A DNA stretch of 34,620 nucleotides. It comes from Magnetococcales bacterium (lineage in GTDB: Bacteria > Pseudomonadota > Magnetococcia > Magnetococcales > JADFZT01). The position numbers and the translations under genes are program-made. The stretch is from positions 32,002 through 66,621 of the forward strand of contig JADFZT010000014.1 in the NCBI GenBank assembly GCA_015232395.1, read 5' to 3'. Under the pieces are notes generated by a model. It searched no databases and was not told the DNA's origin. It saw only the letters and a program-made list of their open reading frames with translations. Numbering within the stretch: the first letter of the stretch is position 1; each line of letters opens with the position of its first letter. Of this stretch, positions 3,313 through 30,062 are shown one piece after another.

Positions 3313-4452
3313 TCAGGAGATCTCTTCGTCCGTAAGATAGCAGCCCGGATCCTCGCTCCAGGGATCTCCCGTCACCTGGAAGGCCCGCACCCGGGTGTTA
3401 CCACCACATATATTGAGATATCGACAGCTGCCACACCGTCCCGTTACCGGTCTGGGTCGTTGACGCAGGCCTGCCAGCAGAGCGTCGGACTCATCGGACC
3501 AAATCTCCGAAAAGGGTCTTTCCTGTACGTTGCCCAGATGGTGGTTCCACCAAAAAATATCGGGATGCACACCGCCACGATTGTCGATGTTGGCAATCCC
3601 CACCCCCGAAGCGTTGCCTCCCCAGCGAATGAGGGCTGCTTCGGCCTTATCAGCAAGCGCCGGTTTTTTTTCCCGCAGCCACTGGAGGAAAAATACCCCA
3701 TCGGCATCGTTGTTGCCGGTGACAAACTCCCGGTCACGGCCATTTTCGATGTCATCCAAGGTGGTTTCGAACAGGTGGGTCATGGCGCGGCGGGTCATCT
3801 GATGGGCCGCATCCTCCAAGCGATTGGCTCTGCCCCGACCCGCATAGTTCCAGTGGGAGAGATAGATCCGGTTTAAGGATTCAGCCGTCATCAAGTCGAG
3901 AATTTTTCCCAGATCTTCGCCGTTATCCCGGGTGAGGGTAAAACGCAATCCCACCCGTACCCCCACCTTTCGGCAGTTGCGGATGCCGGTCAACGCCTCC
4001 TGAAAGGCACCTGTTCGTCCCCGAATATGGTCGTGGTGGGCTTCCAGACCATCAAGGCTCACCCCCACATAATTAAAGCCCGCATCGGCAATGCGATCTG
4101 CGGTGGCGGGATCCATCACCGTGCCGTTGCTGGAGAGCCCCAGATAAAAGCCCAGCTCCTTGGCTTTTTTGGCGATATCGAATAGATCCGGGCGCAGCAG
4201 AGGCTCCCCCCCGGAGAGAATTACCGCCGGCACCCCAAAGCGCTTCATATCCTCCAAAACCCCAAAGCACTCTTCGGTGGAAAGCTCCCCCTCAAAATCC
4301 CGATCCGAGGAGGCGGAATAGCAGTGGCGGCAGTCGAGATTGCAGCGGCGGATGAGGTTCCACACCACCACCGGCCCCCCGCGCGGTGGTGGGCGACCCA
4401 GAGGTGCCCGGGGATTTATCAGCCGGTTGAGCAGTTGTGTCAAACGAAACAT
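3313..4452 (-). CDS. nirJ: heme d1 biosynthesis radical SAM protein NirJ
   Basis: NirJ is the cytoplasmic radical SAM enzyme thought to replace the propionate side chains of didecarboxysiroheme by oxo groups on the way to heme d1. The 379 residues include the radical-SAM cluster motif C37-x3-C41-x2-C44, the GGEP motif shortly after, and a C-terminal SPASM-like cysteine cluster (CGSC, NICGG, and a final GDPW...PGC segment) typical of NirJ. The ATG at 4452 has AGGTG six bases upstream. It is the last gene of the nir series, 50 bases after nirDL. Other SPASM enzymes (heme-modifying AhbC or AhbD) are related, but the neighbours nirS, F, G, H and DL settle the assignment. Confidence 0.94.
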   Translation of the reverse strand: MFRLTQLLNRLINPRAPLGRPPPRGGPVVVWNLIRRCNLDCRHCYSASSDRDFEGELSTEECFGVLEDMKRFGVPAVILSGGEPLLRPDLFDIAKKAKELGFYLGLSSNGTVMDPATADRIADAGFNYVGVSLDGLEAHHDHIRGRTGAFQEALTGIRNCRKVGVRVGLRFTLTRDNGEDLGKILDLMTAESLNRIYLSHWNYAGRGRANRLEDAAHQMTRRAMTHLFETTLDDIENGRDREFVTGNNDADGVFFLQWLREKKPALADKAEAALIRWGGNASGVGIANIDNRGGVHPDIFWWNHHLGNVQERPFSEIWSDESDALLAGLRQRPRPVTGRCGSCRYLNICGGNTRVRAFQVTGDPWSEDPGCYLTDEEIS

Positions 4453-4502: not shown

Positions 4503-5483
4503 TTACCCAAACCGCAGGCCGGTTTTTTTGAGAATGCGGCTGCTGTAGAGAATTTGGTGGCCCCTGTCATGGGCACCCAGCAGGGTGGAAATCTCTTCAA
4601 CACGGGCGGTCACCACCTCCCGCTCCTGACCATGAACCATGACGAAAAGATTATAGGGCCACTCGGGCAGCCTCTGGGGGCGACGATAGCAGTGGCTGAC
4701 AAAACCGAGGGCGCCGATCTGCTTGCCAAGCGCATCGATACGCTCCTCCGGCAAAATCCAAACCGACATGCCGTTGGCTTTCAGCCCCAGGCGATAGTGG
4801 TTGGGCACCACACCGATGCGCCGGATCCAGGTTTTTTCCAGCATCCCCTTAAGGCGCTCAATCAGGGCTTCCACCTCCATACCGATTGTTCGAGCTATCT
4901 GATGGTAAGGATCGACCACCAGGGGCAGCCCCCCTTGAGTGGCACGAATAATCTTTAGATCGATCTCATCAGGGAGTCCGGGATTTTTGGCTGGGGGGCG
5001 CTCCGGCAGGGGCACGGTATCGATGCCTCCCTGCTCATCCAATCCCACCTGAAACCCCAGCCGATATTCTGTCAGCTTTGGCAGGTTGAAAACAGCCAGT
5101 CCCGTGCGATTTTCTATTTCAGCCAGGGTATTGGTAAGCTCTATCGGGGTTTCAGTCGCCACCACAAACCACATGTTCAGAGTGTGATCCCGGGCATAGT
5201 TGTGGGCCACCTGGGGGAAGGCATTGACCACTTCTGCGACCTGCTCAAAATCCCGGTCAGCAGGCACCGCGAGAGCTGCCAGAGTCAGGCCACCTCCCAT
5301 GCGTTCGGCATTGTAGAGAGGACCAAAACGGGAGAGCAGCCCCTCTTCGAGGAGTTTTTGAATGGTTTGAATCAGACTCTCTTCCGTCAGATCCAAGTTG
5401 GCCCCGGCCTGGGCAAAGGGGGTCAGCGTGAGGGGAAAGCCGGTTTGCAGGCCATTGATGATCCGGCGGGAGAGAGGATCCAA
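4503..5483 (-). CDS. nirDL: siroheme decarboxylase, fused NirD-NirL
   Basis: This protein contributes to removing the two acetate carboxyls of siroheme to give didecarboxysiroheme. Its 326 residues hold two Lrp/AsnC-like halves. The N-terminal NirD/G-type half (1-150) has HNYARDH at 94-100 followed by NMWFV. The C-terminal NirL/H-type half (172-326) has CYRRPQ at 265-270 followed by WPYNLFVM and HG. A Pro-rich linker joins them. Each half keeps a helix-turn-helix-like N-terminus, as is usual in this family. The start is TTG at 5483: the AGGAG inside the end of nirH is nine bases upstream and no ATG fits. The gap to nirH is 6 bases, implying coupling. Fused NirDL proteins are known in Hydrogenobacter and Paracoccus. 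Confidence 0.92.
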   Translation of the reverse strand: MDPLSRRIINGLQTGFPLTLTPFAQAGANLDLTEESLIQTIQKLLEEGLLSRFGPLYNAERMGGGLTLAALAVPADRDFEQVAEVVNAFPQVAHNYARDHTLNMWFVVATETPIELTNTLAEIENRTGLAVFNLPKLTEYRLGFQVGLDEQGGIDTVPLPERPPAKNPGLPDEIDLKIIRATQGGLPLVVDPYHQIARTIGMEVEALIERLKGMLEKTWIRRIGVVPNHYRLGLKANGMSVWILPEERIDALGKQIGALGFVSHCYRRPQRLPEWPYNLFVMVHGQEREVVTARVEEISTLLGAHDRGHQILYSSRILKKTGLRFG

Positions 5484-5489
5484 TCCGGG

Positions 5490-6038
5490 TTACTCCTGGG
5501 CCAGTGCCGGGGTGGATGCGGCGGATGTTGTGGCAGAGGTTTGATCGGCACTTTTAAAATAGTGCGCCCCGCACTGCTTGAAGCGGCGTTTGCTGAAGAG
5601 AATTTTACGGGAGATCGGTTCCAGTTGGCAGCTGGTGACCAGGTGTTGGAGATTATCCAGCACTTCGTTGCGTTCCCGGCCATGGATCATGCAGTAGAGG
5701 TTATAGGGCCATTGGGGTGGGCGTCGCAGTCGTTTATAGCAGAGGCTGACAAACTCAAACCCGCTGAGCTGTTGGCCAACTTCATCAACCTGGGCCTCGG
5801 GAATATCCCACACCACCATGCCGTTGGCGTGATAACCAAGCTCCCGATGCCTGACGATGATCCCCATGCGCCGGATAAGCCCGCGCTCCTTAAGGTCCGC
5901 CAAAAGCGCAATCACTTCCCCCTCGGCGAGCCCAATCTGTTGACCGATTTCCAAAAAGGGTCGTGAAGAGAGGGGGAAACCGCCTTGAATGGCTGCTACC
6001 AGGCGTTTTTCAAGATCGGTGATCGGGGGAGGGGACAA
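5490..6038 (-). CDS. nirH: siroheme decarboxylase subunit NirH
   Basis: This 182-residue Lrp/AsnC-fold protein is of the NirL/H type. After a helix-turn-helix-like region it carries GFEFVSLCYKR and then WPYNLYCMIHG, the same signature as the C-terminal half of the neighbouring NirDL. It pairs with NirG to form a siroheme decarboxylase. The C-terminus ends in an Ala/Thr/Ser-rich tail of about 20 residues that is probably disordered. The best start is TTG at 6038, with AAGGA seven bases upstream that overlaps the end of nirG. nirG, nirH and nirDL are only 6-10 bases apart. Confidence 0.9.
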   Translation of the reverse strand: MSPPPITDLEKRLVAAIQGGFPLSSRPFLEIGQQIGLAEGEVIALLADLKERGLIRRMGIIVRHRELGYHANGMVVWDIPEAQVDEVGQQLSGFEFVSLCYKRLRRPPQWPYNLYCMIHGRERNEVLDNLQHLVTSCQLEPISRKILFSKRRFKQCGAHYFKSADQTSATTSAASTPALAQE

Positions 6039-6048
6039 GGGAGGATCC

Positions 6049-6549
6049 TTATTTCCAGTTCAGGGGAAATCCCAGGTCGATATGATAGTCAGCGAGCATG
6101 GGCAGGGAAAGCACCGGATAGCCGCTTTGCTTTTCAATCTCCATGAGCACTTGATCGAGTTTTTCCTGGTTGGATGCGGTGGCCACGAACCAGAGATTGA
6201 CCTCGTTGTCCCGTTCGTAGTTGTGATTGATCTCGCTGAAGCCATTGACCAGTGCGGCCACCCGATCCAGTTCTTCAGGTGGCACCGCCATGGCGGCCAG
6301 GGTGGAGGCACCCACCCGATGGGGATGAAAAACCACCCCCACCCGGCTGATAATACCCACATCCCGAAGCCCTTCCAACCGTTTAAGAAGCGTTTCTTCG
6401 GAAATCCCCAGGGTTTGGGCCATGTCGGCGTAAGGGCGTTCGGTCAGGGGAAAACGGTGCTGGAATTCGTTGAGAAGCCGTTTATCCAGATCAGAAAGCC
6501 CTTCAGTCTCCAGGGCTGGGTTCATCTCTTCGCCGAGTGGTCGATGCAA
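6049..6549 (-). CDS. nirG: siroheme decarboxylase subunit NirG
   Basis: This NirD/G-type Lrp/AsnC-fold protein of 166 residues has the signature INHNYERD followed by NLWFVAT, the counterpart of the N-terminal half of NirDL. It acts with NirH in decarboxylating siroheme for heme d1. The TTG start at 6549 has GGAGG ten bases upstream. An in-frame ATG at 6525 preceded by GAAGAG is an alternative that would drop eight residues. It opens the nirGH-DL-J group, separated from nirF by a structured 218-bp gap. Confidence 0.9.
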   Translation of the reverse strand: MHRPLGEEMNPALETEGLSDLDKRLLNEFQHRFPLTERPYADMAQTLGISEETLLKRLEGLRDVGIISRVGVVFHPHRVGASTLAAMAVPPEELDRVAALVNGFSEINHNYERDNEVNLWFVATASNQEKLDQVLMEIEKQSGYPVLSLPMLADYHIDLGFPLNWK

Positions 6550-6767: not shown

Positions 6768-7979
6768 TTACAGGCCGGTACGGTGTGCCCTGGAGGAGAA
6801 GAAAATGCCACTCGGTTTTTCCGCCGGAAGTGTCGCAATCCGCTCCATTCTATCGGTATGGTAAACCTCAACCCGGTCCAGATCCCGCACCGAAACCCAA
6901 ACATGCTCCCCCCGGGGAGTAAACTCCATATGCATGATTCCCTTACCCGGTTTGAGGGTTTTGACCACCTTGAGAGAGGTGGTGTCGATCACCTGGATGG
7001 CGTCATTTTTGGGATAGGCAAAGTTGACCCACACCTGGCGGCCATCGGGACGCGCCATGGCAAAGACCGGCTGTCCTTGCAGGGGAATGCGGGCCACCTC
7101 TTCCCAGGTGCCGGTGCGAACCACCAACACTTCGTGGCGACCGATGGCAGGCAGGAAGGCTAAATCCCCAGCCATGGCCCACCCTTCCAGATGGGGCATC
7201 TTATAGACCGGCAGCTTTTTTTCTCCCTTGCCATAGCCGTCCAAAATCCGCTGCACACCCTTTTCAGGCTGCCAGAGATCCAGGAGTACCAAACCATCTT
7301 CACCAAACAGCCCGGCGATATAGTGCCTGCCATCCCCGGAGACCAGGGCATCATAGGGTTTGGAGCCCACATCGAGAAATTTTTGGATTTGGGGCTCTTG
7401 GGGGTTTTTCAGATCAGCGATCCAGATTTCACCCGCATCAAAAAGGCTGAAGACGAAACGCTGCCCGGGGATGTCCACCAACCCCACCACCTTGGAACGC
7501 TCCCCATCTGCACCAATTGCGGGAATGTCGGCGACCAGTTCCAGGGTGACGGCATCAAAAACCCGCACGCCTCCCGGGGTATAGTTGGAAACAGCCACCA
7601 GAGAGCCATCCTGGGAGATCGCCCCACCGATGGCATTCCCCCCCTGAACCACGCGTTTGACCACTTCTCCGGTCAGCACATCCAGCTTGCTGAGCCCCCC
7701 ATCCCGGCCAAAGATATAGGCAAAGCGTTCATCCCGGGAATAGACCGCCGAGGCGTGGGAAAGGTCTCCCAGCCCGGCCACCTGGAAGAGGGACGATTTA
7801 TCGCTGGTTTCTACAATTTGAATGCCCCCGGTGGCTCGTTCGATGACGATCCCCAGATCTCCCGTACCCCGCAGAGGGGTGCAGGCTGGCAGAAAAAACA
7901 GAGCCAGCAGTACCACTATCACAGGGGGAGGGAAGAGCCGGAAAGGGGGGAGGCTTAGGGAATGAGAATGAATAATCAT
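6768..7979 (-). CDS. nirF: heme d1 biosynthesis lipoprotein NirF
   Basis: NirF is a periplasmic, membrane-anchored protein with an eight-bladed beta-propeller fold resembling the d1 domain of NirS. It binds dihydro-heme d1 and acts late in cofactor assembly. With the start at 7979 there are 403 residues: a hydrophobic signal (18-30) ending in the lipobox LPAC with Cys33 as lipidated residue, then propeller repeats such as DAVTLEL and GDGRHYIAG. The ATG overlaps the nirC stop as ATGA, which decides this start over an upstream in-frame GTG/ATG possibility and implies coupled translation. Similarity to NirS and NirN propellers is expected, but it has no CxxCH, which excludes those. Confidence 0.93.
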   Translation of the reverse strand: MIIHSHSLSLPPFRLFPPPVIVVLLALFFLPACTPLRGTGDLGIVIERATGGIQIVETSDKSSLFQVAGLGDLSHASAVYSRDERFAYIFGRDGGLSKLDVLTGEVVKRVVQGGNAIGGAISQDGSLVAVSNYTPGGVRVFDAVTLELVADIPAIGADGERSKVVGLVDIPGQRFVFSLFDAGEIWIADLKNPQEPQIQKFLDVGSKPYDALVSGDGRHYIAGLFGEDGLVLLDLWQPEKGVQRILDGYGKGEKKLPVYKMPHLEGWAMAGDLAFLPAIGRHEVLVVRTGTWEEVARIPLQGQPVFAMARPDGRQVWVNFAYPKNDAIQVIDTTSLKVVKTLKPGKGIMHMEFTPRGEHVWVSVRDLDRVEVYHTDRMERIATLPAEKPSGIFFSSRAHRTGL

Positions 7980-8344
7980 GGGGTTTTTCCACTCTTGATG
8001 CGTTTGACGAGCCAACGGATTTCCTCCCGGGTCAGGAGTTCCCCCCAGGGGGGCATAGCCATGTCGGGCATGCCGTGAAAAATGATCTCTTCCAAAAATT
8101 CTGCCGGTTTTTCGGTGAGATCGCCAGGGGTGAGGGGTGGCCCCAACCCCCCCTTCAGGGTCAAACCGTGGCAGGAGCCGCAGTCATGAAGGAGTAGATG
8201 TTCCAATTTTTCCTGGCGATCAGCCGATAGATCGGCCTGAGCTTGGGTGGAAAACAGCAGAAAAAACAGGATAAGCCCCCGAAATGCCCCCCTTGGGTTT
8301 GGCATGGGAATCGAGCCTTTGCACATTGGTTGGTTGAATCTCAT
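7976..8344 (-). CDS. nirC: periplasmic monoheme cytochrome c NirC
   Basis: This small class I cytochrome c has one heme site, C55-G-S-C58-H59, followed by GLTLKGGLGPPL, which is characteristic of NirC. A Met-rich segment (MPDMAMPP) supplies the probable axial Met. The hydrophobic signal peptide spans about 20-37 and ends QAQA. NirC is an electron donor to NirS or takes part in d1 maturation. The ATG at 8344 is preferred because GGAGGAGAGG lies nine or more bases upstream; the in-frame TTG at 8353 is too close to it. The gene lies 78 bases after nirS and overlaps nirF by four bases. Confidence 0.9.
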   Translation of the reverse strand: MRFNQPMCKGSIPMPNPRGAFRGLILFFLLFSTQAQADLSADRQEKLEHLLLHDCGSCHGLTLKGGLGPPLTPGDLTEKPAEFLEEIIFHGMPDMAMPPWGELLTREEIRWLVKRIKSGKTP

Positions 8345-8366
8345 AAATGACAACCCTCTCCTCCAT

Positions 8367-8422: not shown

Positions 8423-8423
<1 letters not shown>
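8367..8423 (-). repeat. stem-loop between nirS and nirC
   Basis: ACCCGGG (8367-8373) pairs with CCCGGGT (8417-8423, at the nirS stop). An inner GGCAG/CTGCC stem (8374-8378 with 8389-8393) can form too. There is no T tract. It could protect the abundant nirS message or slow read-through into nirC. Weak evidence. Confidence 0.35.
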
Positions 8424-10141
<1,718 letters not shown>

Positions 10142-11364: not shown

Positions 11365-12222
11365 ATGGGTGAGACGACGCGTCGTTCTTACGGTCTCCAG
11401 ACCCCCGGAACCAAGGGTGTAGCTGGAACCAAAAGATACGCCATGGTGATCGACCTGAGGAAATGCATCGGATGCATGTCCTGTTCGGTCGCCTGCAAAG
11501 CGGAATATGGAGTTCCACTGGGCATGTGGCGGACCTGGGTGAAGGTGGCCGACAAGGGCCGCTATCCCAACACCCGACGGGTCTTCATGCCTCGTCTGTG
11601 TAATCACTGCGACTATCCGGTCTGTGTGCGCAACTGCCCCACCCAGGCCACCTTCAAGCACGAAGACGGCTTTGTGCTGCAGCGCTACAACCGCTGCATC
11701 GGCTGTCGTACCTGCATGGTCGCCTGCCCCTACAACGCCCGGCACATGTTGCCCTTCAAACGGACCGACATGAACCTGCCCAAGATGGTGGTGGACAAGT
11801 GTACCTTCTGCATCCACCGGGTGAAAAAAGGGACCGTCACCGCCTGTGTTCAGGCTTGTGTAGGCGGGGCGCGCATCTTTGGCGATATGAATGATCCCAA
11901 CAGCGAGGTGGCCAGGCTGATTTCCCGGGAACGGGTGTCGGTACTCAAGCCAGAGCTGGGAACTTCTCCTTCGGTCTATTACATTGCCGGTGACTGGGAG
12001 ATCATGGACGAGGTGCATGGCTACCTCAACCGGACCGCCCAGCTCAAAGAGGAGTTCAATACCTACAAGCGAAACCACGAGGGTGACACCTTTGCCGATC
12101 TGGTCGAGGGGGGCGATCCAACTATGGTCCAGATCGGCCATCACTCTGTCGGTTTCCTGAAATCCATTCCGCACAAGGCGAAAGATGTCTGGGACGCCTT
12201 CAAGCTGTTCCTCTTCGGGTAA
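11365..12222 (+). CDS. four-cluster ferredoxin-type electron-transfer subunit (PsrB/TtrB/QrcC-like)
   Basis: This is the electron-wire subunit of a molybdoenzyme-NrfD complex. It passes electrons between the catalytic and quinone-interacting subunits. All sixteen cysteines for four [4Fe-4S] clusters are present: C34/37/40/44, C79/82/87/91, C111/114/117/121 and C146/149/161/165. At 285 residues it is longer than PsrB-type proteins (about 190); the extra is a C-terminal tail of about 85 residues after PSVYYI with no recognised domain. There is no signal peptide, so it would be exported folded together with the Tat-carrying catalytic subunit. The ATG at 11365 has AAGG nine bases upstream. It opens the operon, 14 bases before the NrfD-like gene. 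Confidence 0.9.
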   Translation: MGETTRRSYGLQTPGTKGVAGTKRYAMVIDLRKCIGCMSCSVACKAEYGVPLGMWRTWVKVADKGRYPNTRRVFMPRLCNHCDYPVCVRNCPTQATFKHEDGFVLQRYNRCIGCRTCMVACPYNARHMLPFKRTDMNLPKMVVDKCTFCIHRVKKGTVTACVQACVGGARIFGDMNDPNSEVARLISRERVSVLKPELGTSPSVYYIAGDWEIMDEVHGYLNRTAQLKEEFNTYKRNHEGDTFADLVEGGDPTMVQIGHHSVGFLKSIPHKAKDVWDAFKLFLFG

Positions 12223-12236
12223 GGGAGCCGTCCGTA

Positions 12237-13145
12237 ATGCAAGAGAGCGTGGTTACTTTTAACGTCTTCCATCACGTGGCCTGGGGGACGACCATTTCCG
12301 TCTATTTCTGGCTCGTTGGAGCCAGTGCGGGATCATTCGTCATATCGAGCTTCGGCTGGGTTTTTGGCATCAAGCGCTACAAGCCCTTGGCCATGACCGC
12401 TTCGGCTACCGCGATCATCATGTTGCTCATGGTGCCCATTCTGCTGACCTGGGATCTGGGTAAGCCTTTGCGCTTTATCTACCTGCTGATACCAGGATAT
12501 TGGCATGCCACCGGTCCCATGTCCTGGGGTACAGTGCTGATCTGTGTCTATCCCATGTCGATGCTGGTCTACAGTTATTTCGTCATCAAAAATGACGAAT
12601 TCTGGGCGCGGGCTTTGGGAATCGTCGCAATCATTCTGGCCCTCTCCACCCACTGGTATACCGGTGTGGTGATGGAGCTGAACCCCGGGCGCTTTCTGAA
12701 CCATACCGCCTTGGCACCACTGCTCTTTTTGACGGGTGCCTTTATCTCCGGTATCGGGCTTTTGATCCTGATCCTCTGGGTTCAAAACATGTTGGTCGCA
12801 GCCCACAAGCGGATCGACTGGTCTTTGATCGAGGAGATGGCCCAATACATGATGTACGGCCTGGTCTTCGACATGTTCCTGCTCTTTTTGGAGTTCATGC
12901 AATCCACCTACGGCAACATCAACCTGGTGATCGGTCATGAAGAAGTGCTGATGGGCATGTTCAAGTTTCCCTATTTCTGGTTGGAAATCGTCATCGGCCT
13001 GATGATTCCCATCGTCATCCTCGCATCCCCGCTGAAGAAAGTTAAGCCCGCTGTGCTGACTGCTGCCCTGTTGGTTTGCGTCGGCGTCTACGGCATGCGT
13101 GTCTGGTGGGTTATGGGTGGCCAGTATCTGCAGTCTTACTATTGA
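12237..13145 (+). CDS. NrfD/PsrC-type integral membrane quinone-interacting subunit
   Basis: This is the membrane subunit that exchanges electrons with quinone or quinol at the periplasmic side and contains no heme. The 302 residues form about eight transmembrane helices (around 18-40, 50-72, 95-115, 120-150, 160-182, 200-225, 240-265 and 272-295). WDLGKPLRF after helix 2 and ELNPGRFLNH between helices 4 and 5 are typical of the PsrC/NrfD family. The ATG is preceded by GGGAG. The gene follows the Fe-S subunit by 14 bases and its stop overlaps the ribosome site of the molybdoenzyme gene. Family membership is secure; the exact subfamily (PsrC, TtrC, SreC or QrcD-like) is not. Confidence 0.9.
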   Translation: MQESVVTFNVFHHVAWGTTISVYFWLVGASAGSFVISSFGWVFGIKRYKPLAMTASATAIIMLLMVPILLTWDLGKPLRFIYLLIPGYWHATGPMSWGTVLICVYPMSMLVYSYFVIKNDEFWARALGIVAIILALSTHWYTGVVMELNPGRFLNHTALAPLLFLTGAFISGIGLLILILWVQNMLVAAHKRIDWSLIEEMAQYMMYGLVFDMFLLFLEFMQSTYGNINLVIGHEEVLMGMFKFPYFWLEIVIGLMIPIVILASPLKKVKPAVLTAALLVCVGVYGMRVWWVMGGQYLQSYY

Positions 13146-13158
13146 GGAAACAAGAACA

Positions 13159-15519
13159 ATGGCAGGAATACACAGACGTAACTTCCTGAAAATGGGCGCC
13201 GCGGTTACCACGGCGGTTGCGGCCAACCCCTCCCTCGTGCAGGCCATGGAATTGCAGCTCGGGGGCAGCGACTATCACCAGATCAGGACCTTCCACCCCA
13301 GGCTGCGCAAGCCCCTGCTCTGCACCATGTGCCCCTTCTTCGATGGCGGTTACAGCTATTCGGAAGCCGGGCAGGTGATGAAGACCGAGGGCAACCCGGA
13401 CCACTATGCCACGCGCGGCAAGTTTTGCACCAAGGGACTCTCTTCCCTCTTCAGCGTGACCGATCCCGACCGGATTTTGGCCCCGATGAAACGGGTGGGG
13501 CCCAGAGGTTCGGGCCAGTGGAAAGAGATCACCTGGGAGGAAGCGATTGCTCAGGTCTCGGAAAAAATCAGCGCCAACCTCGACAATCCCGACAGCATCC
13601 ATCTCAACGAAGGGGGCTTTAAGGACGGCGCTACCCTGCGTTTCATGGATACCATCGGTTCCAAGTCGGTGGTTCGCAGCCGCATCCCCTCCATCGGATG
13701 CGCCGCCAAGCAGACCGCCCTGAAAGAGGTCATGGGCGTCAACTATGCTATCCCTGATTTGGAACACGCCAAATATGTGCTCAATTTTGGCGCCAACATC
13801 ATGGAAACGGCGTTCCCGCTGGCACAGCGGTTGACCGATGGTATCGTCAACAACCGGCTGAAGCTGGTCACCTTCGACGTCCGTATGTCCAATACGGCCG
13901 GTCGTAGCGACGAATGGGTTCCGGTCTTTCCAGGCAGCGATGGCATCATTGCGCTGGCCATGGCCAACCTGATCCTTCAGAAAGGCCTGGCAGATACCGA
14001 ATTTATCGATAACTGGACCAACCAATCCAGCGAATCCCTGACTGAACTCCTGGCTCCCTACACCATGGAAAAGGCGGCTCAGGCCAGTGGCGTAGCCGCC
14101 AAGACCCTGGAGAGCATCACCCTTGAGTTTGCCAAATGGAAGCCCGGAGCGATCTTCAGCCTGAACGGTGCCACTTGGCACGAGAACGGCTTGGAGACCG
14201 AATCGGCCATTCTCCTGCTGGCCGCCATCTCCGGCAACGTCGAGGTGGAAGGCGGGCTCTGCCTACCCCGTCAATTCGACATGGCTAACGTCACGCCAGC
14301 CCCCGACCCTGCTGGCAGCGAAGCGGATCGGATGCGCTATAACTATACCTTCCCCTTCGAGGTGAAGGAGGGGAAACAGAAGGTGTCGGTGCTGTTCAAC
14401 CACATGAGCAACCCGGCCTACTCCTCCCCGGCGGCGAGCATCTGGCGGGAGGTGCTGAAGGACGAAGCGCTGGTTCCCTTCGTTGTCGACTTCAGCCCCT
14501 TCATGAGTGAGACTGCTGAGCTTGCGGATCTGATTCTACCCGATGTGGTCAACGTCGAGCGCCATGACGCGGCAAGCAGCCCGACCTCTCTCAAGCAGTG
14601 GGCCTCCATGACCGTCCCCGCCTTCAAGGCCAGAGGTCAGGCCCAGGATGTTCGGGAAACCCTCAAGGCAATCGTCAAATCGATCGATGCCGACGGCTCC
14701 CGTGAGATGGCCCAGTACTGGGCCTTCAAGAATGCCAAGGATTGGGTCAAGAAGGAGATCTACAAGACCGACGGTTTGGGTAAGAAGGCTTATAAGAAGA
14801 TGCGCAAATCCGGGGTCTGGCCCATACTCGGCAAGCTTGATCCCGCTAATCGGCAGATCACCAAGGGCGGCAAGGCGGTCAAAGGGGAGTATGGTTTGCA
14901 CAAGGCTTCCGGTTTTCCCACACCTTCCGGAAAAATGGAGTTGCGCAATCCCTCCTGGTCTCCCAACCCCAAGCATAAGGATCTGGGGGAAGGGCAGTTC
15001 GTGCTGACCACCTACAAAGTGGCCTACCACACCCTCTCCATGACCAGCAACCTCAAGCTGCTGTCGGAGCTGTGGCACTCCAACCCGCTCTGGATCAACA
15101 AGCAGACTGCCAAGGCGCTGGGTATCGGAGATGGTGAACTGGTGCGGGTGACCAGCGATGTGGGTTATCTGGTAACCCGAGCCTGGGCGACCCAAGGGAT
15201 TCACCCCAAGGTGGTGGGCATCTCCACCTCCGTGGGGCGCACCGCCTACGGTCGGGTAGCCAAGGCCGACTCGACGGCCCATGAGCCTTTTGCCGATCCC
15301 GGGCAGCAGGATCTCGATATTGATGACAACCTCTGGTGGCGGGATGGTGGCGTCAATCCCAACGATATCATCCCTCTGGCCATAGATCCGGAAAGCGGGG
15401 TACAGGCCTGGAACGATACCGTGGTGGCGGTTGCCCCTGCAAAGCCGGGAGATCAATACGGTGAAATCAAGGTGGACAATGAAAAGCACGTGGCCATCTA
15501 TAAAAAGCGGTTGGGATAG
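13159..15519 (+). CDS. Tat-exported molybdopterin oxidoreductase, catalytic subunit, with Asp in the Fe-S motif
   Basis: This 786-residue member of the DMSO-reductase/CISM superfamily is the catalytic subunit of the complex. The twin-arginine signal RRNFLK (6-11) sends it to the periplasm. The N-terminal cluster motif reads C55-x2-C58-x3-D62-x27-C90: spacing is canonical but Asp stands where the third cysteine is normal. Cys181 in IPSIGCAAKQ aligns by context with the molybdenum-ligand cysteine of PsrA/TtrA-like enzymes. The middle and C-terminal molybdopterin-dinucleotide binding regions follow. The start at 13159 is chosen for GAGG upstream and the signal peptide; an upstream in-frame start would overlap nrfD. 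The substrate is unknown: polysulfide, thiosulfate, tetrathionate, selenate or arsenic compounds are possible, or, as in QrcB, a protein partner rather than a small substrate. Confidence 0.88.
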   Translation: MAGIHRRNFLKMGAAVTTAVAANPSLVQAMELQLGGSDYHQIRTFHPRLRKPLLCTMCPFFDGGYSYSEAGQVMKTEGNPDHYATRGKFCTKGLSSLFSVTDPDRILAPMKRVGPRGSGQWKEITWEEAIAQVSEKISANLDNPDSIHLNEGGFKDGATLRFMDTIGSKSVVRSRIPSIGCAAKQTALKEVMGVNYAIPDLEHAKYVLNFGANIMETAFPLAQRLTDGIVNNRLKLVTFDVRMSNTAGRSDEWVPVFPGSDGIIALAMANLILQKGLADTEFIDNWTNQSSESLTELLAPYTMEKAAQASGVAAKTLESITLEFAKWKPGAIFSLNGATWHENGLETESAILLLAAISGNVEVEGGLCLPRQFDMANVTPAPDPAGSEADRMRYNYTFPFEVKEGKQKVSVLFNHMSNPAYSSPAASIWREVLKDEALVPFVVDFSPFMSETAELADLILPDVVNVERHDAASSPTSLKQWASMTVPAFKARGQAQDVRETLKAIVKSIDADGSREMAQYWAFKNAKDWVKKEIYKTDGLGKKAYKKMRKSGVWPILGKLDPANRQITKGGKAVKGEYGLHKASGFPTPSGKMELRNPSWSPNPKHKDLGEGQFVLTTYKVAYHTLSMTSNLKLLSELWHSNPLWINKQTAKALGIGDGELVRVTSDVGYLVTRAWATQGIHPKVVGISTSVGRTAYGRVAKADSTAHEPFADPGQQDLDIDDNLWWRDGGVNPNDIIPLAIDPESGVQAWNDTVVAVAPAKPGDQYGEIKVDNEKHVAIYKKRLG

Positions 15520-15528
15520 GTCTGGTTC

Positions 15529-15568
15529 CCAGGCAGATTCAATGACGACCAGGCAGATTCAATGACGG
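15529..15568. repeat. 20-bp tandem direct repeat in the molybdoenzyme-cytochrome spacer
   Basis: Units 15529-15548 and 15549-15568, beginning CCAGGCAGATTC, match at 19 of 20 positions. The last base of the second unit creates CGGAG, the Shine-Dalgarno sequence of the downstream cytochrome gene. It looks like a recent slippage duplication that lengthened the spacer. Confidence 0.85.
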
Positions 15569-15578
15569 AGATAGAAGA

Positions 15579-16274
15579 TTGATAGCCAATAAATTGAAAA
15601 CACAACTTCGCTCCCCGCTCGTTCTGACCGCTATCGCGGCGTTTAGTATCGTCTTGATTGCAGTCCTCAGCTGGAGCTCTGATCGGTTCACGAGAATCAA
15701 CGTATGTCTCACTTGTCATGAAATTTTCGTGGACTATGACGCTTACAAACCAATTGGCGATGTGAGCACGGATATGGAGGATTACAACCCCTCCGAACCC
15801 TATGATCCCGGCCTCTTCAACGTCACCGTCGGTTGTGCCGAGTGTCACGCCTATCCTTATGAAGAGTACAAGGCTTCGCCCCATGGTGAGAATGAACGGG
15901 GAGTTGAGCCAGGCTGTATGGGGTGTCACAACGCCCACAGCGTACGGGAAATCCTCATGTGGAAGTTTTTCTATGTGAACCAGGGTGGACTGGGAGAGAC
16001 TCCCTTCCACGCCATATCCAGTACCCTGAGGGATATCCCGGCTTGGGAAGACTTGCGCATCGAATTGGCCAAACGGGTACGCGAGGAGATGGTCGCCGAG
16101 GATTCGGTCAAGTGTAAAAACTGCCACAAGCCCAAGAGCAAATGGTTCAACAAGATCGAGCGTCACCAGGAAAACATCAAAACCCTCAAAAAGACCTGTG
16201 TGGAGTGTCACTACAACATCGTTCACAAGAGTGTGAAGTGGCATGAGGACGATACCCGAGGGATGAAAAAATAA
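15579..16274 (+). CDS. membrane-anchored pentaheme cytochrome c (NapC/NirT/NrfH-like)
   Basis: One N-terminal hydrophobic helix (12-32) anchors a periplasmic domain with five CxxCH sites: C43/C46/H47, C86/C89/H90, C113/C116/H117, C179/C182/H183 and C207/C210/H211. Of 231 residues, the first part resembles NapC/NirT/NrfH quinol-oxidising cytochromes, which usually bind four hemes; here there are five, with a long insert between hemes 1 and 2 and between 3 and 4. The TTG start at 15579 is chosen because CGGAG lies eight bases upstream and there is no ATG before the helix. As last gene of the operon it should carry electrons between the molybdoenzyme complex and periplasmic partners or quinol. 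Confidence 0.88.
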   Translation: MIANKLKTQLRSPLVLTAIAAFSIVLIAVLSWSSDRFTRINVCLTCHEIFVDYDAYKPIGDVSTDMEDYNPSEPYDPGLFNVTVGCAECHAYPYEEYKASPHGENERGVEPGCMGCHNAHSVREILMWKFFYVNQGGLGETPFHAISSTLRDIPAWEDLRIELAKRVREEMVAEDSVKCKNCHKPKSKWFNKIERHQENIKTLKKTCVECHYNIVHKSVKWHEDDTRGMKK

Positions 16275-16668: not shown

Positions 16669-17121
16669 ATGAAATCGGTCACTCTGAAGCTTGTTTTACT
16701 GGGTCTGTTTTGGATAGGGGTCACCACCGCCACGAGTGCCTTGGCGGATGGTCATGAAGGGCATCGGATTCCGGATGCGCCAGCGGAGTGGCTGGCCAAA
16801 ACAAATCCCTACAAGGTCGATGAGGTGGATGCCAAATTTATCAAAAAGACCGGGCGGCTATTCAAGCGCAAGTGCGCCAAGTGTCATGGCATCAAAGGGG
16901 ATGGTCAGGGGTATAAGGCGGAATTTTTCACGATCAAGCCGGCTGCTTTTGCCAATCCGGGCTATATGGCCGGGCGTCAAGATGGGCAACTTGCCTGGAT
17001 CATTACCAAAGGTAGCCCTGATACTGAGATGAAACCCTTTGGCCCCGAATCGGATGTGGGTTTGAAAGAGGATGAAATCTGGCGGCTGATCACTTTCCTG
17101 CGCAAGAGCTTTACCAACTGA
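16669..17121 (+). CDS. periplasmic monoheme class I cytochrome c
   Basis: The 150 residues start with a signal peptide (hydrophobic 7-26, ending SALA). They contain one heme site C69-A-K-C72-H73 followed by GIKGDGQGY, with Met121 in TEMKPFG as the probable second ligand. It is a soluble electron carrier of the periplasm. GGGAGG lies eight bases before the ATG at 16669, which decides this start over ATG 16663 and farther ones. It stands alone between two terminators, but its position next to a molybdoenzyme-cytochrome operon and near nirS makes it a candidate electron donor; that role is inference. No named cytochrome family was recognised. Confidence 0.85.
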   Translation: MKSVTLKLVLLGLFWIGVTTATSALADGHEGHRIPDAPAEWLAKTNPYKVDEVDAKFIKKTGRLFKRKCAKCHGIKGDGQGYKAEFFTIKPAAFANPGYMAGRQDGQLAWIITKGSPDTEMKPFGPESDVGLKEDEIWRLITFLRKSFTN

Positions 17122-17418: not shown

Positions 17419-18447
17419 ATGGAACCCTCACGGAAAATAATTTACGTAACGGGGGCGACCGCCTCCTATTTTCCCATGGTGTGTGGCTTGCTGGCTTCGC
17501 TCAGGGCTTTTGATCCGGGGATTAAACTCCATGTTTGCGACCTGGGGCTCACCCGGGAACAAGCTGCTTTTTTGAATCGATTGGGGCTTCTGCTGCCCAA
17601 ACCGGATCATTTGGAGAGCGGAAGGCATGCGTATTATTACAAAGGGAGCTTGGCCCACTATGTGGCGCACCTGAATTTTGATGCGTTGGTTTGGATCGAT
17701 TCAGACTGTGTGGTGGCCAAACCCCTCTCTGGAGAGGTGGTCAAAATTCTTCAGGGGGTGGGGGTGGATGAGCCCTTCCTGGCGACCACTTCTGACATCA
17801 ATGGGCTCTCCATCGGGGGCTTTATCAAACAGAACGCCGGGATCACCGCTCCCTTTCAGGAGGGTATCAAAAAGGGCGGCATCAATCCCAACTATCCTTA
17901 CCTCAATTCCGGGGTGTTTATTCTCCACGCCCCCAAAGCGTTGCAGGCGTGGGCGGAGTTGGTTGGAGAGATTCCTGAGCATCTGCTTTTCGAACAAAAC
18001 GCTTACAATTTAGCGGTTTACCAGCATGTGAAAAGAATCGGTCAGCTGGATTGGACCACCTGGAGCGTCTGTGGTTCACTCTTGAACCAGCTTACCCTGC
18101 AAAAGGGTGCTGATGATCTTCCCTTCCATATCTATTTGGGAGATCAGCGGGTTTTTGTCGTCCATATTGCTTCTACCCGGGAGCAGGCAGCACTCGATTT
18201 TGACCCCATTGCCCTGCCGGTGGCTGACCGCTATGTGGTGGGGCTCTATCGCTATCTTCGCAATGAGACCATTCAAAAAACCTACCTGGAACAGCTCTAT
18301 CGCTACCTCGCCATCGACCCCGAAAACAGACGACACTTGCTGGAAACCGGGGCTGCACTGGATAAGAACCCCATGGATCCAAACCTTTCTGATCAGGAGC
18401 GAAAGAGGCTTGAGGAGGAGTTGGCCATCTATTTTAAATATGGCTGA
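17419..18447 (+). CDS. GT8-like glycosyltransferase (GT-A fold)
   Basis: The 342-residue protein is cytoplasmic, with no signal or membrane helix. The GT-A metal-binding DxD is D94-S-D96 inside VWIDSDCVV, YLNSGVFILH (161-170) is the usual second active-site segment, and FEQNAYNLAV follows, as in GT8-like transferases that read a nucleotide sugar. The N-terminus IIYVTGATASYFPMVCGLLASLRAFDP is typical of the family. The acceptor and sugar are unknown; a surface polysaccharide or glycoprotein target is plausible. It is monocistronic and converges on the chemoreceptor gene. Confidence 0.75.
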   Translation: MEPSRKIIYVTGATASYFPMVCGLLASLRAFDPGIKLHVCDLGLTREQAAFLNRLGLLLPKPDHLESGRHAYYYKGSLAHYVAHLNFDALVWIDSDCVVAKPLSGEVVKILQGVGVDEPFLATTSDINGLSIGGFIKQNAGITAPFQEGIKKGGINPNYPYLNSGVFILHAPKALQAWAELVGEIPEHLLFEQNAYNLAVYQHVKRIGQLDWTTWSVCGSLLNQLTLQKGADDLPFHIYLGDQRVFVVHIASTREQAALDFDPIALPVADRYVVGLYRYLRNETIQKTYLEQLYRYLAIDPENRRHLLETGAALDKNPMDPNLSDQERKRLEEELAIYFKYG

Positions 18448-25915: not shown

Positions 25916-27184
25916 ATGGCCGACGGTAACGCCACGAACCGAACAATTTTGGTCGTGGGAGGTGGGATAAGCGGTCTGACCACAGCGGTAGAAGCCGCTG
26001 AGGTTGGATACGATGTCATTCTGGTCGAGAAGGAGCCCCAACTCGGCGGTAGAGTGTCCCAACACCACAAGTATTTCCCCAAGCTGTGCAGTCCCTCCTG
26101 CGGACTGGAAATCAACTTCCAACGAATCCGCAACAATGACCGGATTCGCGTTCATACCCTGGCGGAAGTGGAAGAAATTACCGGCGGTCCAGGCAACTAT
26201 ACCGCTCGTATTCGTCAGAACCCCCGCTTTGTCAACGAAAAGTGCACCGCTTGCGGTGACTGTTCCAAGGCGTGTGACACCGAAGTGGACAATCCTTTCG
26301 ACTTTGGTCTGGGCAAGGTGAAGGCGATTCGCAACGCCCACCAGATGGCTTTTCCCAACCGCTATTTCATGGATCCCGAGTTTGCAGGAACCGATGCCGC
26401 CAAAAAGCTGGTCGAGGTGTGCGATGCCGGTGCCATCGAGCTGGACCAGCAAGCCGAAACCATGGAGCTGAATGTCGGCAGCGTGGTGTGGGCCACCGGT
26501 TGGAAGCCATACGACGCTGAAAAGATCCTCCCCTATGGGTTTGGCCGCTTTGACAACGTCACCACCAACATGCGTTTCGAGCGGCTTGCCTCTGTCACTG
26601 GTTCTACCGAAGGCAAGATCACCCGCCCCTCGGATGGCAAAGAGGTGAAGAATATCGCCTTTATCCAGTGTGCGGGTTCCCGGGATCACAACTATCTGCC
26701 CTTCTGTTCCCGGATCTGCTGCCTGGCCTCCATGAAGCAGACCCAATATGTCCGGGAGCAGCATCCCGACGCCACCATTACGGTTTATTATATCGACCTT
26801 CGGGCCATGGATCGCTATGAGGCGTTCCAGCAAAAGGTACAGGCTGATACCGGCATTCGCTGGATCAAGTCCAAGCCCGCCCGCATCGATGAAAATCCGG
26901 AAAACAAAAATCCCATCGTCGTGGGCGAAGATACCCTCACCGGTGAGCGGTATGCCGATGAATACGACATGGTGGTTCTCGCAACCGGTATGGAGCCCAA
27001 CTCCGACACCAGTCGGGTGCCCGCAGAAGGGGTCACCTATGACGACTACGGATTTGTGGTAAACCAGGGGAGTGGCATCCATGCCAGTGGCTGCTCTACC
27101 GCTCCGGTGGACGTGGCCAGCTCGGTTCAATCGAGCACCGCCATGGCCTTGAAAGCGATTCAAACCGTGGCGAAGGGAGGTTGA
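25916..27184 (+). CDS. qmoA: QmoA, HdrA-like flavoprotein of the quinone-interacting oxidoreductase complex
   Basis: QmoA is a soluble FAD- and Fe-S-binding subunit related to heterodisulfide reductase HdrA. In sulfate reducers and sulfur oxidisers, Qmo links the quinone pool to APS reductase. The 422 residues have the dinucleotide fold VVGGGISGLTTAVEAAE (13-29) with VEKE after strand 2, KLCSPSCGLEIN (57-68) and a [4Fe-4S] motif C110-x2-C113-x2-C116-x3-C120. The NAD-type second half ends with ATGMEP and GCSTAPVDVASS. GGAGAGGTG precedes the ATG. It leads the operon, with qmoB 6 bases after. Its shorter length and the neighbouring long HdrA-like gene favour QmoA over a generic HdrA. Confidence 0.92.
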   Translation: MADGNATNRTILVVGGGISGLTTAVEAAEVGYDVILVEKEPQLGGRVSQHHKYFPKLCSPSCGLEINFQRIRNNDRIRVHTLAEVEEITGGPGNYTARIRQNPRFVNEKCTACGDCSKACDTEVDNPFDFGLGKVKAIRNAHQMAFPNRYFMDPEFAGTDAAKKLVEVCDAGAIELDQQAETMELNVGSVVWATGWKPYDAEKILPYGFGRFDNVTTNMRFERLASVTGSTEGKITRPSDGKEVKNIAFIQCAGSRDHNYLPFCSRICCLASMKQTQYVREQHPDATITVYYIDLRAMDRYEAFQQKVQADTGIRWIKSKPARIDENPENKNPIVVGEDTLTGERYADEYDMVVLATGMEPNSDTSRVPAEGVTYDDYGFVVNQGSGIHASGCSTAPVDVASSVQSSTAMALKAIQTVAKGG

Positions 27185-27190
27185 TCAACC

Positions 27191-29398
27191 ATGGATAAGA
27201 AGATCGGCTGTTATATTTGCACCGGCTGTGGAATTGGCGATGCCATGGATGTGGACGCCCTCGGTGCTGTTGCTGCCAAGGAACAGAAAGTTCCGGTAGT
27301 CAAAAATCACGAACTCCTCTGCGGACCCGAAGGGGTCGCCATGATCCGTCAGGACATGGAATCCGAAGGAGTGAATGCACTGGTCATCGCGGCCTGCTCC
27401 CCTCGGGTAAAGGTCGAAGAGTTCCGCTTTGGTACCGAGCTGATGGAACGGGTGAGCCTGCGGGAAAATGCCCTCTGGATCCATCCGGTTGAAGAAGGGG
27501 TCGAGGAGGCTGAAGAAGATCTGCAGATGGCGGGTGAGGATTATATCCGCATGGGGTGCGTCAAGATCAAAAAGATGAACACCCCCAAGCCCTTCATTGA
27601 TGATAACTTTTCCAAGCAGATTCTGGTGGTGGGTGGTGGTATTACCGGTATGACCGCAGCGAAGGAAGCAGCGGCCACCGGTTACAAAACCATCCTGGTG
27701 GAAAAGGAGGCAGAGCTGGGTGGGCGTATCGGCAAGATGAAGAATATCTCCCCCACCAAGGCCCCCTACAACTATCTGGAAGAGAATCCGGTCCCAGCTC
27801 TGATCGAGGCGGTCAATAACGACGCCAACATCACGGTGCTGACCAATGCCCGGGTGATGCAGACGACCGGCGCTCCCGGACTCTTTGATCTCACCATCAA
27901 GAACGGCTCAGGTGACGTACACGAGCGGGTGGGGGCCATCATCCTCACCACCGGTTCCGAAACCTACGATCCGGCCAAGCTGCCCCACCTGGGTCACAGC
28001 GACAACGCCGATGTCATCACCTCCATGGAGTTTGAGGAGATGGTGAAGGCGGGCAAGATCAACCGTCCTTCCGATGGACAACCGGCCAAGCGGGTGGCGT
28101 TTTCACTCTGTGCCGGTTCCCGGGACAAGGAGCATCTGGAATATTGCTCCGGGGCTTGCTGCACCTACTCCATGAAGCAGGCGCTGAATGTGAAGGAGCA
28201 GTATGCGGATGCCTCCACCTACCTGATCTATCAGGAGATCCGTACTCCGGGTCAGATGGAGGATTTTTACCGTAAGGCCCAGGATGAAGGCAGCGTCTTC
28301 ATCAAGGGGGATGTGAAAAAGGTCGCCAAGGGTTCCGGCGGCGGCTTGAGCGTCGAAGTGGACGACAAGCTCCTGCGGGCCACTGAAAATCTGGAAGTGG
28401 ATCTCCTGGTTTTGGCTACCGGTATGACGCCCAACATCGACACGGTTGATCCCAACAATCCTTCTCCGATGGGAGATGTGGACGAGGGGGCGGTCAAACA
28501 GGTGCTGAATCTCCAATACCGTCAGGGTCCGAGTCTGCCCGAGTTGAAATGGGGTTTTCCGGATTCCCACTTTATCTGCTTCCCTTATGAAACCCGGCGT
28601 ACCGGCATCTATGCGGCTGGTCCCGCCAGGCGTCCCATGACGGCAGCTGCGGCGATGTCTGATGCCACGGGGGCCGCCTTAAAGGCGATCCAGGTTGTGG
28701 AATCGGTCTCCCGGGGGGCCGCCGTCCATCCCCGGGCTGGGGATCTCTCCTATCCTTCCTTTCGGGAAGATGGCTGTACCCAGTGTAAGCGTTGTACCGA
28801 GGAGTGTCCTTTCGGGGCGATCAACGAGGATGAAAAGGGCAACCCCCTCTTCAATCCCACCCGTTGCCGCCGCTGCTCCACCTGTATGGGGGCCTGTCCT
28901 CAAAAAATCATCTCCTTCGACAACTATTCGGTGGATATGATCGGTGCCATGTTGAAGGAGTGCGAAATTCCCGAGGAGGACGAAGAGAAGCCGCGTATTT
29001 TGGTTCTTGGCTGTCAGAACGACGCCATGCCTGCTCTGGATATGGCGGCGACCAAGGGAGCCAAGATCAGTCCTTATGTCCGCTTCATTCAACTGCGCTG
29101 CATGGGCTCCATGAGTCTGGTGTGGATCGCTGATGCGATGTCCACCGGTTATGATGGCGTCATGCTCATGGGCTGCCGTCACGGTGAAGACTATCAGTGC
29201 CACAACGTGCGGGGCTCGGCGCTGGCTGAAATCCGCCTCTCCAAGGTTTCGGAGACGTTGGACCGGCTGCAACTGGAGAGCGAGCGGGTGAAGATGATCG
29301 AGGTCAATATCGTTGACTCCGAAACCCTGCCTGGGGCGATCAACAAGTTTGTTGAAGATCTTGATGAGTTTGATCCGAACCCCTACAAGGAGTTCTAG
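27191..29398 (+). CDS. qmoB: QmoB, HdrA-MvhD-like flavoprotein
   Basis: The 735-residue second flavoprotein of the Qmo complex has a Cys-containing N-terminal segment (CYICTGCGIGDAMD, 7-20). The HdrA-like FAD domain starts at VVGGGITGMTAAKEAAAT (about 146), and two ferredoxin-type [4Fe-4S] motifs lie near 528-541 (CTQCKRCTEECP) and 559-571 (CRRCSTCMGACP). A C-terminal MvhD/FlpD-like domain carries ILVLGCQNDAMPALD and a later MGCRHGEDYQC. This HdrA plus MvhD layout is the QmoB pattern. GGGAGG overlapping the qmoA stop precedes the ATG. It is followed by a terminator-like hairpin and then hdrC. Confidence 0.92.
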   Translation: MDKKIGCYICTGCGIGDAMDVDALGAVAAKEQKVPVVKNHELLCGPEGVAMIRQDMESEGVNALVIAACSPRVKVEEFRFGTELMERVSLRENALWIHPVEEGVEEAEEDLQMAGEDYIRMGCVKIKKMNTPKPFIDDNFSKQILVVGGGITGMTAAKEAAATGYKTILVEKEAELGGRIGKMKNISPTKAPYNYLEENPVPALIEAVNNDANITVLTNARVMQTTGAPGLFDLTIKNGSGDVHERVGAIILTTGSETYDPAKLPHLGHSDNADVITSMEFEEMVKAGKINRPSDGQPAKRVAFSLCAGSRDKEHLEYCSGACCTYSMKQALNVKEQYADASTYLIYQEIRTPGQMEDFYRKAQDEGSVFIKGDVKKVAKGSGGGLSVEVDDKLLRATENLEVDLLVLATGMTPNIDTVDPNNPSPMGDVDEGAVKQVLNLQYRQGPSLPELKWGFPDSHFICFPYETRRTGIYAAGPARRPMTAAAAMSDATGAALKAIQVVESVSRGAAVHPRAGDLSYPSFREDGCTQCKRCTEECPFGAINEDEKGNPLFNPTRCRRCSTCMGACPQKIISFDNYSVDMIGAMLKECEIPEEDEEKPRILVLGCQNDAMPALDMAATKGAKISPYVRFIQLRCMGSMSLVWIADAMSTGYDGVMLMGCRHGEDYQCHNVRGSALAEIRLSKVSETLDRLQLESERVKMIEVNIVDSETLPGAINKFVEDLDEFDPNPYKEF

Positions 29399-29409
29399 AC
29401 CAAAAATGC

Positions 29410-29444
29410 CCGGGGGGCGGCGCTGCCGCCTTCCGGTTTTTTTT
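29410..29444 (+). terminator. intrinsic terminator inside the operon, between qmoB and hdrC
   Basis: CCGGGGGGCGGC (29410-29421) pairs with GCCGCCTTCCGG (29425-29436), with two G-U pairs and loop GCT, followed directly by eight T (29437-29444). It has every feature of a strong rho-independent terminator, 11 bases after the qmoB stop and 29 before hdrC. Partial read-through would make less hdrCB than qmoAB. Confidence 0.85.
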
Positions 29445-29472
29445 CTGAAGTGTTCCGACAGGAGATCAAATC

Positions 29473-30060: not shown

Positions 30061-30062
30061 GG

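Follow-up and report, generated by a model that had tools for sequence, protein, structure and literature searches.

The question raised by four adjacent genes in a genome fragment of a Magnetococcales bacterium is whether their products form a periplasmic enzyme or a relay that carries electrons from quinol to cytochrome c. The fragment, called here the window, is a stretch of 34,620 nucleotides (nt) (GenBank assembly GCA_015232395.1, contig JADFZT010000014.1, positions 32,002 to 66,621 of the forward strand). The four genes are read here as encoding a quinol:cytochrome c oxidoreductase, an electron-transfer complex that is non-catalytic and would feed cytochrome cd1 nitrite reductase and perhaps a ba3-type oxidase as well; the probability given to this reading is roughly 0.6. 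The complex would be analogous to the known complexes Qrc and ACIII but independently derived. Gene content, conservation, the lost ligand, the Cys-to-Asp change, the separate lineage and the association with NirS, cytochrome c and cytochrome c4 are observed; we infer the absence of catalysis, the direction of electron flow, the identity of the acceptor and the assembly of the subunits. The four genes and a cytochrome gene that follows them are listed below; aa denotes amino acids.

11365..12222, plus strand: iron-sulfur (Fe-S) electron-transfer subunit, PsrB/NrfC-like, 285 aa (Pfam Fer4_11, 7.5e-20)
12237..13145, plus strand: NrfD-type quinol-binding membrane subunit, 302 aa (PF03916, 1.1e-31)
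13159..15519, plus strand: Tat-exported molybdopterin-family (MopB) subunit, 786 aa (PF00384, 1e-26; PF01568; TAT_signal)
15579..16274, plus strand: membrane-anchored pentahaem cytochrome c, NapC/NirT family (PF03264, 5.2e-27, residues 86–219)
16669..17121, plus strand: periplasmic mono-haem cytochrome c, designated cytc1, a probable mobile electron carrier (PF00034, 4.6e-9)

All four open reading frames at 11365–16274 are present as a preliminary description of this DNA had claimed. The gaps between them are short (14, 13 and 59 nt), so a single operon for all four is plausible. The longest open reading frame of the MopB subunit begins at 13099; the likely start is the ATG at 13159, which has GAGGAAA upstream, and the Tat motif is RRNFLKMG. 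The pentahaem cytochrome gene has a TTG start. The complex is single-copy in the genome (4.94 Mb in 170 contigs), which encodes four other, distant DMSOR-family proteins.

The same four genes are found in the same order in 10 of 48 Magnetococcales genomes, with identities of 59–65% for the MopB subunit and 74–84% for NrfD. A scan of 84,980 species genomes showed the cluster also in Thioploca, Sedimenticola, Chromatiales and other Gammaproteobacteria (63–67%), and three of the genes in a Deltaproteobacterium (56%), where the contig begins inside NrfD. The MopB subunit is present at 64% or more in 8 of the 210 genomes of the Sedimenticola order and in 4 of the 43 of the Thioploca order. The four-gene order is kept at all loci with complete flanks, across orders, and there is one NrfD copy per complex both in the operon and in relatives. 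The preliminary description had proposed a genome search for conserved linkage; linkage is conserved, and the grouping is not due to chance, since several gammaproteobacterial groups share the order with the 10 Magnetococcales genomes.

Evidence on catalysis comes from the MopB subunit, whose residues are numbered here from the codon preceding the ATG at 13159. The column of the protein ligand to molybdenum (Mo), which reads S-I-C in a catalytic-type clade and is Cys173 in PsrA, is Gly, Asn or Ser throughout the clade of this complex. Cys182 of the window protein was considered as a ligand, as phmmer aligns it with PsrA Cys173, yet it stands one residue past the ligand column and was rejected as a conserved ligand: the Cys is found in the window protein only, and all relatives carry Asn, Thr, Gly or Ser there. 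In the clade, the GHW motif by the C-terminal pterin-binding region is replaced by GR and then Thr, Ser, Ala or Trp. The motif of the N-terminal cluster (FS0) is C56-x2-C59-x3-D63-x27-C91, in which the third Cys is replaced by Asp in all clade members. This replacement alone is no proof of lost catalysis, since three catalytic-type relatives (L056, L058 and L060) likewise carry Asp. The family assignment and Tat export proposed earlier for this subunit hold, but, with no protein ligand to Mo, a Mo cofactor cannot be taken as established.

The AlphaFold model of the subunit is a confident MopB fold (pLDDT 84), and the nearest structure is PsrA (2vpw_A, TM 0.73). Curated models are not reached, with 256 of 694 bits for PhsA and 179 of 440 for QrcB (NF041783). 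In quick trees with SH-aLRT support, the clade and a sister clade form a branch of their own (support 99–100), and the adjoining clade retains catalytic features; ActB of ACIII branches apart in both trees. Placement inside the QrcB clade was rejected by the AU test (p-AU = 0.0003 and 2e-49, both for holding the two together). The subunit therefore falls neither within Qrc, by the AU test, nor within the curated Phs model, the kind of known clade to which the preliminary description had allowed that it might belong.

Two other groups of Mo-family proteins were seen. One is the related clade of Cys-ligand molybdo-enzymes (L054, L056:8938-11439, L058-L063, L029, L030), which includes the three Asp-bearing members named above; its proteins of about 755–916 aa reach no curated family; its members come from Bacteroidota, Planctomycetota, Magnetococcales and others, and some lie beside an Fe-S gene only. 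The other consists of 784–800 aa proteins in Chloroflexi (L065-L077, L079), of which L065, the one tested, gives 371 bits to the QrcB model (cut-off 440). These are perhaps another Qrc-like lineage.

The sister clade consists of the gammaproteobacterial loci L053, L055 and L057 and two loci in genome G048 of the same phylum. Identities to the complex are about 51% for the Fe-S subunit, 50–56% for NrfD and 29–37% for the Mo-family subunit, in which the cluster cysteines are all lost. The cytochrome of this clade carries seven haems, made up of the pentahaem part and a dihaem domain that matches cytochrome c4 (6q2u, 6e-20). Cytochrome c4 serves as a donor to oxidases in other bacteria. Its fusion to the pentahaem subunit in the sister clade points to a cytochrome c as the redox partner of the complex.

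These features bear on the possibility that the subunit is a true periplasmic molybdo- or tungsto-enzyme lacking a protein ligand to Mo, comparable in this to arsenite oxidase, and that it oxidises or reduces a compound of sulfur, selenium or arsenic. NrfD and the pentahaem cytochrome would then give electrons two routes. The pterin-binding motifs (DVRxSNTAG and PGSDG) are largely retained, the Tat signal points to a cofactor-type protein that is exported folded, PsrAB is nearest in both fold and Fe-S subunit, and sulfur oxidisers (Thioploca, Sedimenticola) are among the carriers. However, the ligand Cys and the GHW motif are lost clade-wide, the FS0 cysteine has become Asp, and the sister clade has the same four subunits with all cluster cysteines lost. 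The complex co-occurs with NirS and cytochromes, as described below, and its flanks show no conserved sulfur or arsenic gene in the loci compared. Activity on such a sulfur, selenium or arsenic substrate, one of the roles first proposed, thus appears unlikely, because the Mo-ligand Cys is absent family-wide and the sister clade is without cluster cysteines.

The Fe-S subunit retains all 16 cysteines, in four sets of four, which correspond to four predicted [4Fe-4S] sites, and the nearest solved chain is PsrB (2vpw_B, 3e-67). The NrfD subunit scores 111 bits to PF03916 (cut-off 25.8) and its Fe-S partner is present. Asp73 is invariant and Arg288 nearly invariant across the family alignment, and their motifs match those of the quinone-site acid and the gate Arg reported for NrfD proteins (PMC8076601). 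An hhalign comparison of the NrfD alignment with QrcD gave 12% probability, a value that is uninformative because QrcD was represented by a single sequence.

The pentahaem cytochrome displays five CxxCH motifs, at 43, 86, 113, 179 and 207, and one transmembrane helix at residues 9–35. Its PF03264 score is 95.1 bits against a gathering score of 24.1, but it falls far under the curated cut-offs for NapC, TorC and NrfH (NapC, 38 of 349 bits; TIGR02161, 56 of 310). The NapC Pfam match begins at haem 2, so the membrane-proximal haem 1 is an addition that is not collinear with NapC; the two membrane entries for electrons first proposed are on this account no more than a possibility. A phmmer comparison of this subunit with PDB gave no significant match, and its AlphaFold model is poor (pLDDT 57.6).

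Members of the NapC/NirT family oxidise quinol unaided. With the NapC-type match of 5e-27, this leads to a second alternative, in which quinol oxidation and the supply of electrons to NirS fall to the pentahaem cytochrome alone, and the NrfD/Fe-S/Mo-like module is a separate, ordinary enzyme. It is regarded as very improbable. All four genes stand together at every locus with complete flanks across orders, and because the NapC similarity begins only at haem 2, the membrane-adjacent NapC quinol site is not evidently conserved.

What the complex may feed is suggested by its neighbors. Upstream, between 10102 and 3313 on the minus strand, is a nir cluster with these genes:

8423..10102, minus strand: cytochrome cd1 nitrite reductase NirS (type A), the probable electron acceptor (P. 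aeruginosa NirS 1bl9, E = 2e-250)
7976..8353, minus strand: NirC-like cytochrome c (PF13442, 1.3e-12)
6768..8015, minus strand: NirF-like d1-haem biogenesis protein (PF02239, 3.5e-110; no CxxCH)
4503..6549, minus strand: nirD/L/G/H-type d1-haem biogenesis, three open reading frames (4503-5483, 5490-6038, 6049-6549), assigned by order and mutual similarity only
3313..4452, minus strand: nirJ-like radical SAM protein (CNLDCRHC and position; same place in relatives)

The NirS sequence of the window gives just 2e-36 with NirN; hence it is a true NirS, the first gene of the nir cluster. In Magnetococcales, nirS lies within a few kb of the complex wherever the contig reaches far enough, in nine genomes including this one, and the two are linked also in two Gammaproteobacteria. 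Magnetococcales carry two NirS clades, type A (about 67% identity among themselves, including the window sequence) and type B (45–49% to type A). NirS-B, which forms a distinct cytochrome cd1 clade (loci L120, L020, L021, L022, L024, L036, L037, L182-L184), is present in 9 of the 10 Magnetococcales with the complex and in 1 of the 38 without it (Fisher test, 6e-8, uncorrected for ancestry, as are the tests that follow). The exceptions to the pairing are G030, a genome 65% complete, and G008, where the contig ends at the complex. Both states occur within each of the genera g7 and g9.

As an out-of-sample test, the Thioploca order shows the complex and NirS-B in the same 4 of 43 genomes, on different contigs (p = 8e-6), with NirS-B identities of 81–84%. 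In the Sedimenticola order (Chromatiales), a NirS is found in all eight genomes with the complex, compared with 81 of 210 overall (p = 4e-4). Linkage to nirS and unlinked co-occurrence with NirS-B thus favor the earlier suggestion that the complex is a menaquinol hub serving the neighboring nitrite respiration.

Carriers and oxidases are found in the same surroundings. A cytc1 homologue directly follows NirS-B in all 17 loci with a readable downstream flank, and cytc1 homologues also adjoin the complex in relatives. In the genome of the window, NirS-B (L120:5323-6912, on contig C12) lies beside a cytc1 homologue and a ba3-type oxidase operon. The ba3 oxidase operon adjoins the complex itself in L019, and parts of the operon do so in L023, L024 and L036. 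A protein of 503–530 aa (L120:8425-9975, L019:7253-8791) combines cytochrome b6-type, 4Fe-4S and FlpD (MvhD) domains, an odd mix of quinone- and Hdr-type modules; its gene adjoins the ba3-type oxidase operon together with that of a 167-aa protein.

In Chromatiales, genes for cytc1 and three hexahaem cytochromes, and not NirS, come after the complex, an arrangement that would represent a different acceptor attached to the same core. The operon there (L050:12757-17631, L171-L176) encodes cytc1, three hexahaem c7-type cytochromes, and proteins of 403 and 140 aa without a Pfam match. An outer-membrane conduit role was considered for the 403-aa protein and rejected, as the sequence looks helical and periplasmic and shows no porin family.

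The hexahaem cytochromes, together with the four subunit types shared with Qrc and the reversibility of Qrc itself (PMC6303296), would also fit a Qrc-like quinone reductase that runs the other way, from periplasmic cytochromes to the quinone pool. But in most genomes the partners either accept electrons or carry them to acceptors (NirS, ba3 oxidase, cytochrome c4 and cytc1), and the Mo-family subunit lies outside the QrcB clade (p-AU = 3e-4). This alternative appears even less likely than a molybdo-enzyme.

The relation to Qrc is nonetheless close in composition. Both have a membrane multihaem cytochrome, a ligand-less Mo-family protein, a four-cluster Fe-S protein and an NrfD-type protein, with quinone/cytochrome chemistry on the periplasmic side. 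QrcB also lacks the Mo-ligand Cys in the alignment and is reported to be cofactor-less (PMC6303296). However, gene order at true Qrc loci is cytochrome-Mo-FeS-NrfD, whereas here it is FeS-NrfD-Mo-cytochrome. QrcB has all four FS0 cysteines, and true QrcB of Desulfobacterota-type genomes pass the 440-bit cut-off of NF041783, with up to 576 bits. QrcD has 410–437 aa and ten helices (PMC6303296) compared with 302 aa for NrfD here; the lineage is separate and the partners are others. Ten-helix NrfD proteins accompany non-standard or cofactor-less catalytic subunits (Duarte et al., PMC6303296); in contrast, a short NrfD accompanies a ligand-less Mo-family subunit here.

ACIII (ActABCDEF) resembles the complex in its proposed quinol:cytochrome c activity, pentahaem cytochrome, NrfD, Mo-family protein (cofactor-less in ACIII, putatively so here), mono-haem cytochrome c and oxidase linkage. 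It differs in that one protein, ActB (reference 1030–1040 aa), unites the Mo-like and Fe-S parts that separate genes encode here, in having two NrfD subunits (ActC and ActF) and ActD where only one NrfD is found here, and in the placement of its Mo-like part elsewhere in the tree. Psr/Phs has the closest fold, the closest Fe-S subunit and a likewise short NrfD-type subunit, but PsrA has the Mo-ligand Cys and PsrABC/PhsABC have no cytochrome subunit. NapC, NirT and TorC share the membrane-anchored multihaem cytochrome (PF03264); here it has an extra membrane-proximal haem and is tied to an NrfD module. The selenate reductase Srd differs in that SrdA uses a Cys ligand (PMC10100899), and such a ligand is absent from the Mo-family subunit of the complex. 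The part consulted of that 2023 MopB survey describes three independent cofactor losses, and the group of this complex is not among them. A NarGHI-like operon of strain UR-1 (PMC6783814) was considered and is not this complex, as it encodes a TorD-like chaperone and a gamma chain of the haem-b type.

No published description was found in the literature searched, outside of which most subscription-journal papers lie. As far as the families, papers and genomes searched, the complex is apparently undescribed, and the earlier proposal of a quinone-linked four-subunit complex distinct from Psr/Phs and Qrc is supported. To judge from its sequences, it would combine the parts list of Qrc with the proposed activity of ACIII and be a member of neither family.

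In the proposed quinol:cytochrome c oxidoreductase, quinol would be oxidised at NrfD on the periplasmic face. The membrane-anchored pentahaem cytochrome would then receive the electrons by way of the Fe-S subunit, with its four clusters, and probably also of the Mo-family subunit, whose cluster is unusual (Cys3Asp). From there they would reach mono-haem cytc1 and then cytochrome cd1 NirS, or possibly the ba3 oxidase encoded beside the complex in relatives. The Mo-family subunit, probably descended from a Psr/Phs-like catalytic subunit, has lost its protein ligand to Mo and would thus resemble QrcB and ActB in serving as a scaffold or wire. In Qrc, charge movement is coupled at the NrfD-type subunit (PMC6303296); it may be speculated that the benefit here is charge movement at NrfD in the opposite direction.

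We would put even odds on a more specific proposal. In it, the complex is a third, independently evolved NrfD-based quinone/cytochrome c complex beside Qrc and ACIII. A Psr-like ancestor would have lost the Mo ligand and one of the cluster cysteines, leaving a Cys3Asp cluster, and the complex would give a particular cytochrome cd1 clade its own, possibly electrogenic, quinol route that bypasses bc1.

Several observations weigh against the main reading, a quinol:cytochrome c oxidoreductase feeding NirS. Retention of the pterin-binding motifs makes a bound cofactor possible, and arsenite oxidase works without a protein ligand to Mo. The quinone-site Ser is Ser in the window NrfD but Ala or Met in relatives, by eye in the PMSWG motif alignment, although it is reported to be strictly conserved in NrfD proteins (PMC8076601). 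The Fisher tests take no account of shared ancestry. In Chromatiales, NirS-B is found in only 2 of the 8 genomes with the complex (1 of 202 without), and in the present genome the complex adjoins NirS-A, NirS-B being on another contig (C12). Cytochrome b of bc1 is present in nearly all Magnetococcales and in 56 of 61 genomes compared, this one included, so the complex is not needed merely for cytochrome c reduction. Strict replacement of bc1 by the complex is ruled out by the same count, and the complex would be an additional route.

Two other features of the window lie 3′ of the complex. A 342-aa open reading frame at 17419-18447, 3′ of the cytochrome, has no Pfam or NCBIfam match. Positions 25916-30947 carry genes for QmoA/QmoB-like flavoproteins followed by HdrC-/HdrB-like genes (Qmo with HdrBC), named from sequence only.

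The locus advises caution against labelling genes of this kind polysulfide, thiosulfate or nitrate reductase. If the reading is true, a catalytic molybdo-enzyme has been turned into a quinone/cytochrome c relay on yet another independent occasion, in addition to Qrc and ACIII. The series consisting of an intact catalytic clade, a clade with the ligand lost and Cys replaced by Asp, and a clade with all cluster cysteines lost and cytochrome c4 fused would make the steps of this conversion directly testable. In textbook denitrifiers, electrons reach NirS via bc1 and cytochrome c. If nitrite respiration in magnetotactic cocci and large sulfur bacteria does have an NrfD-type route of its own, its energy balance would be different.

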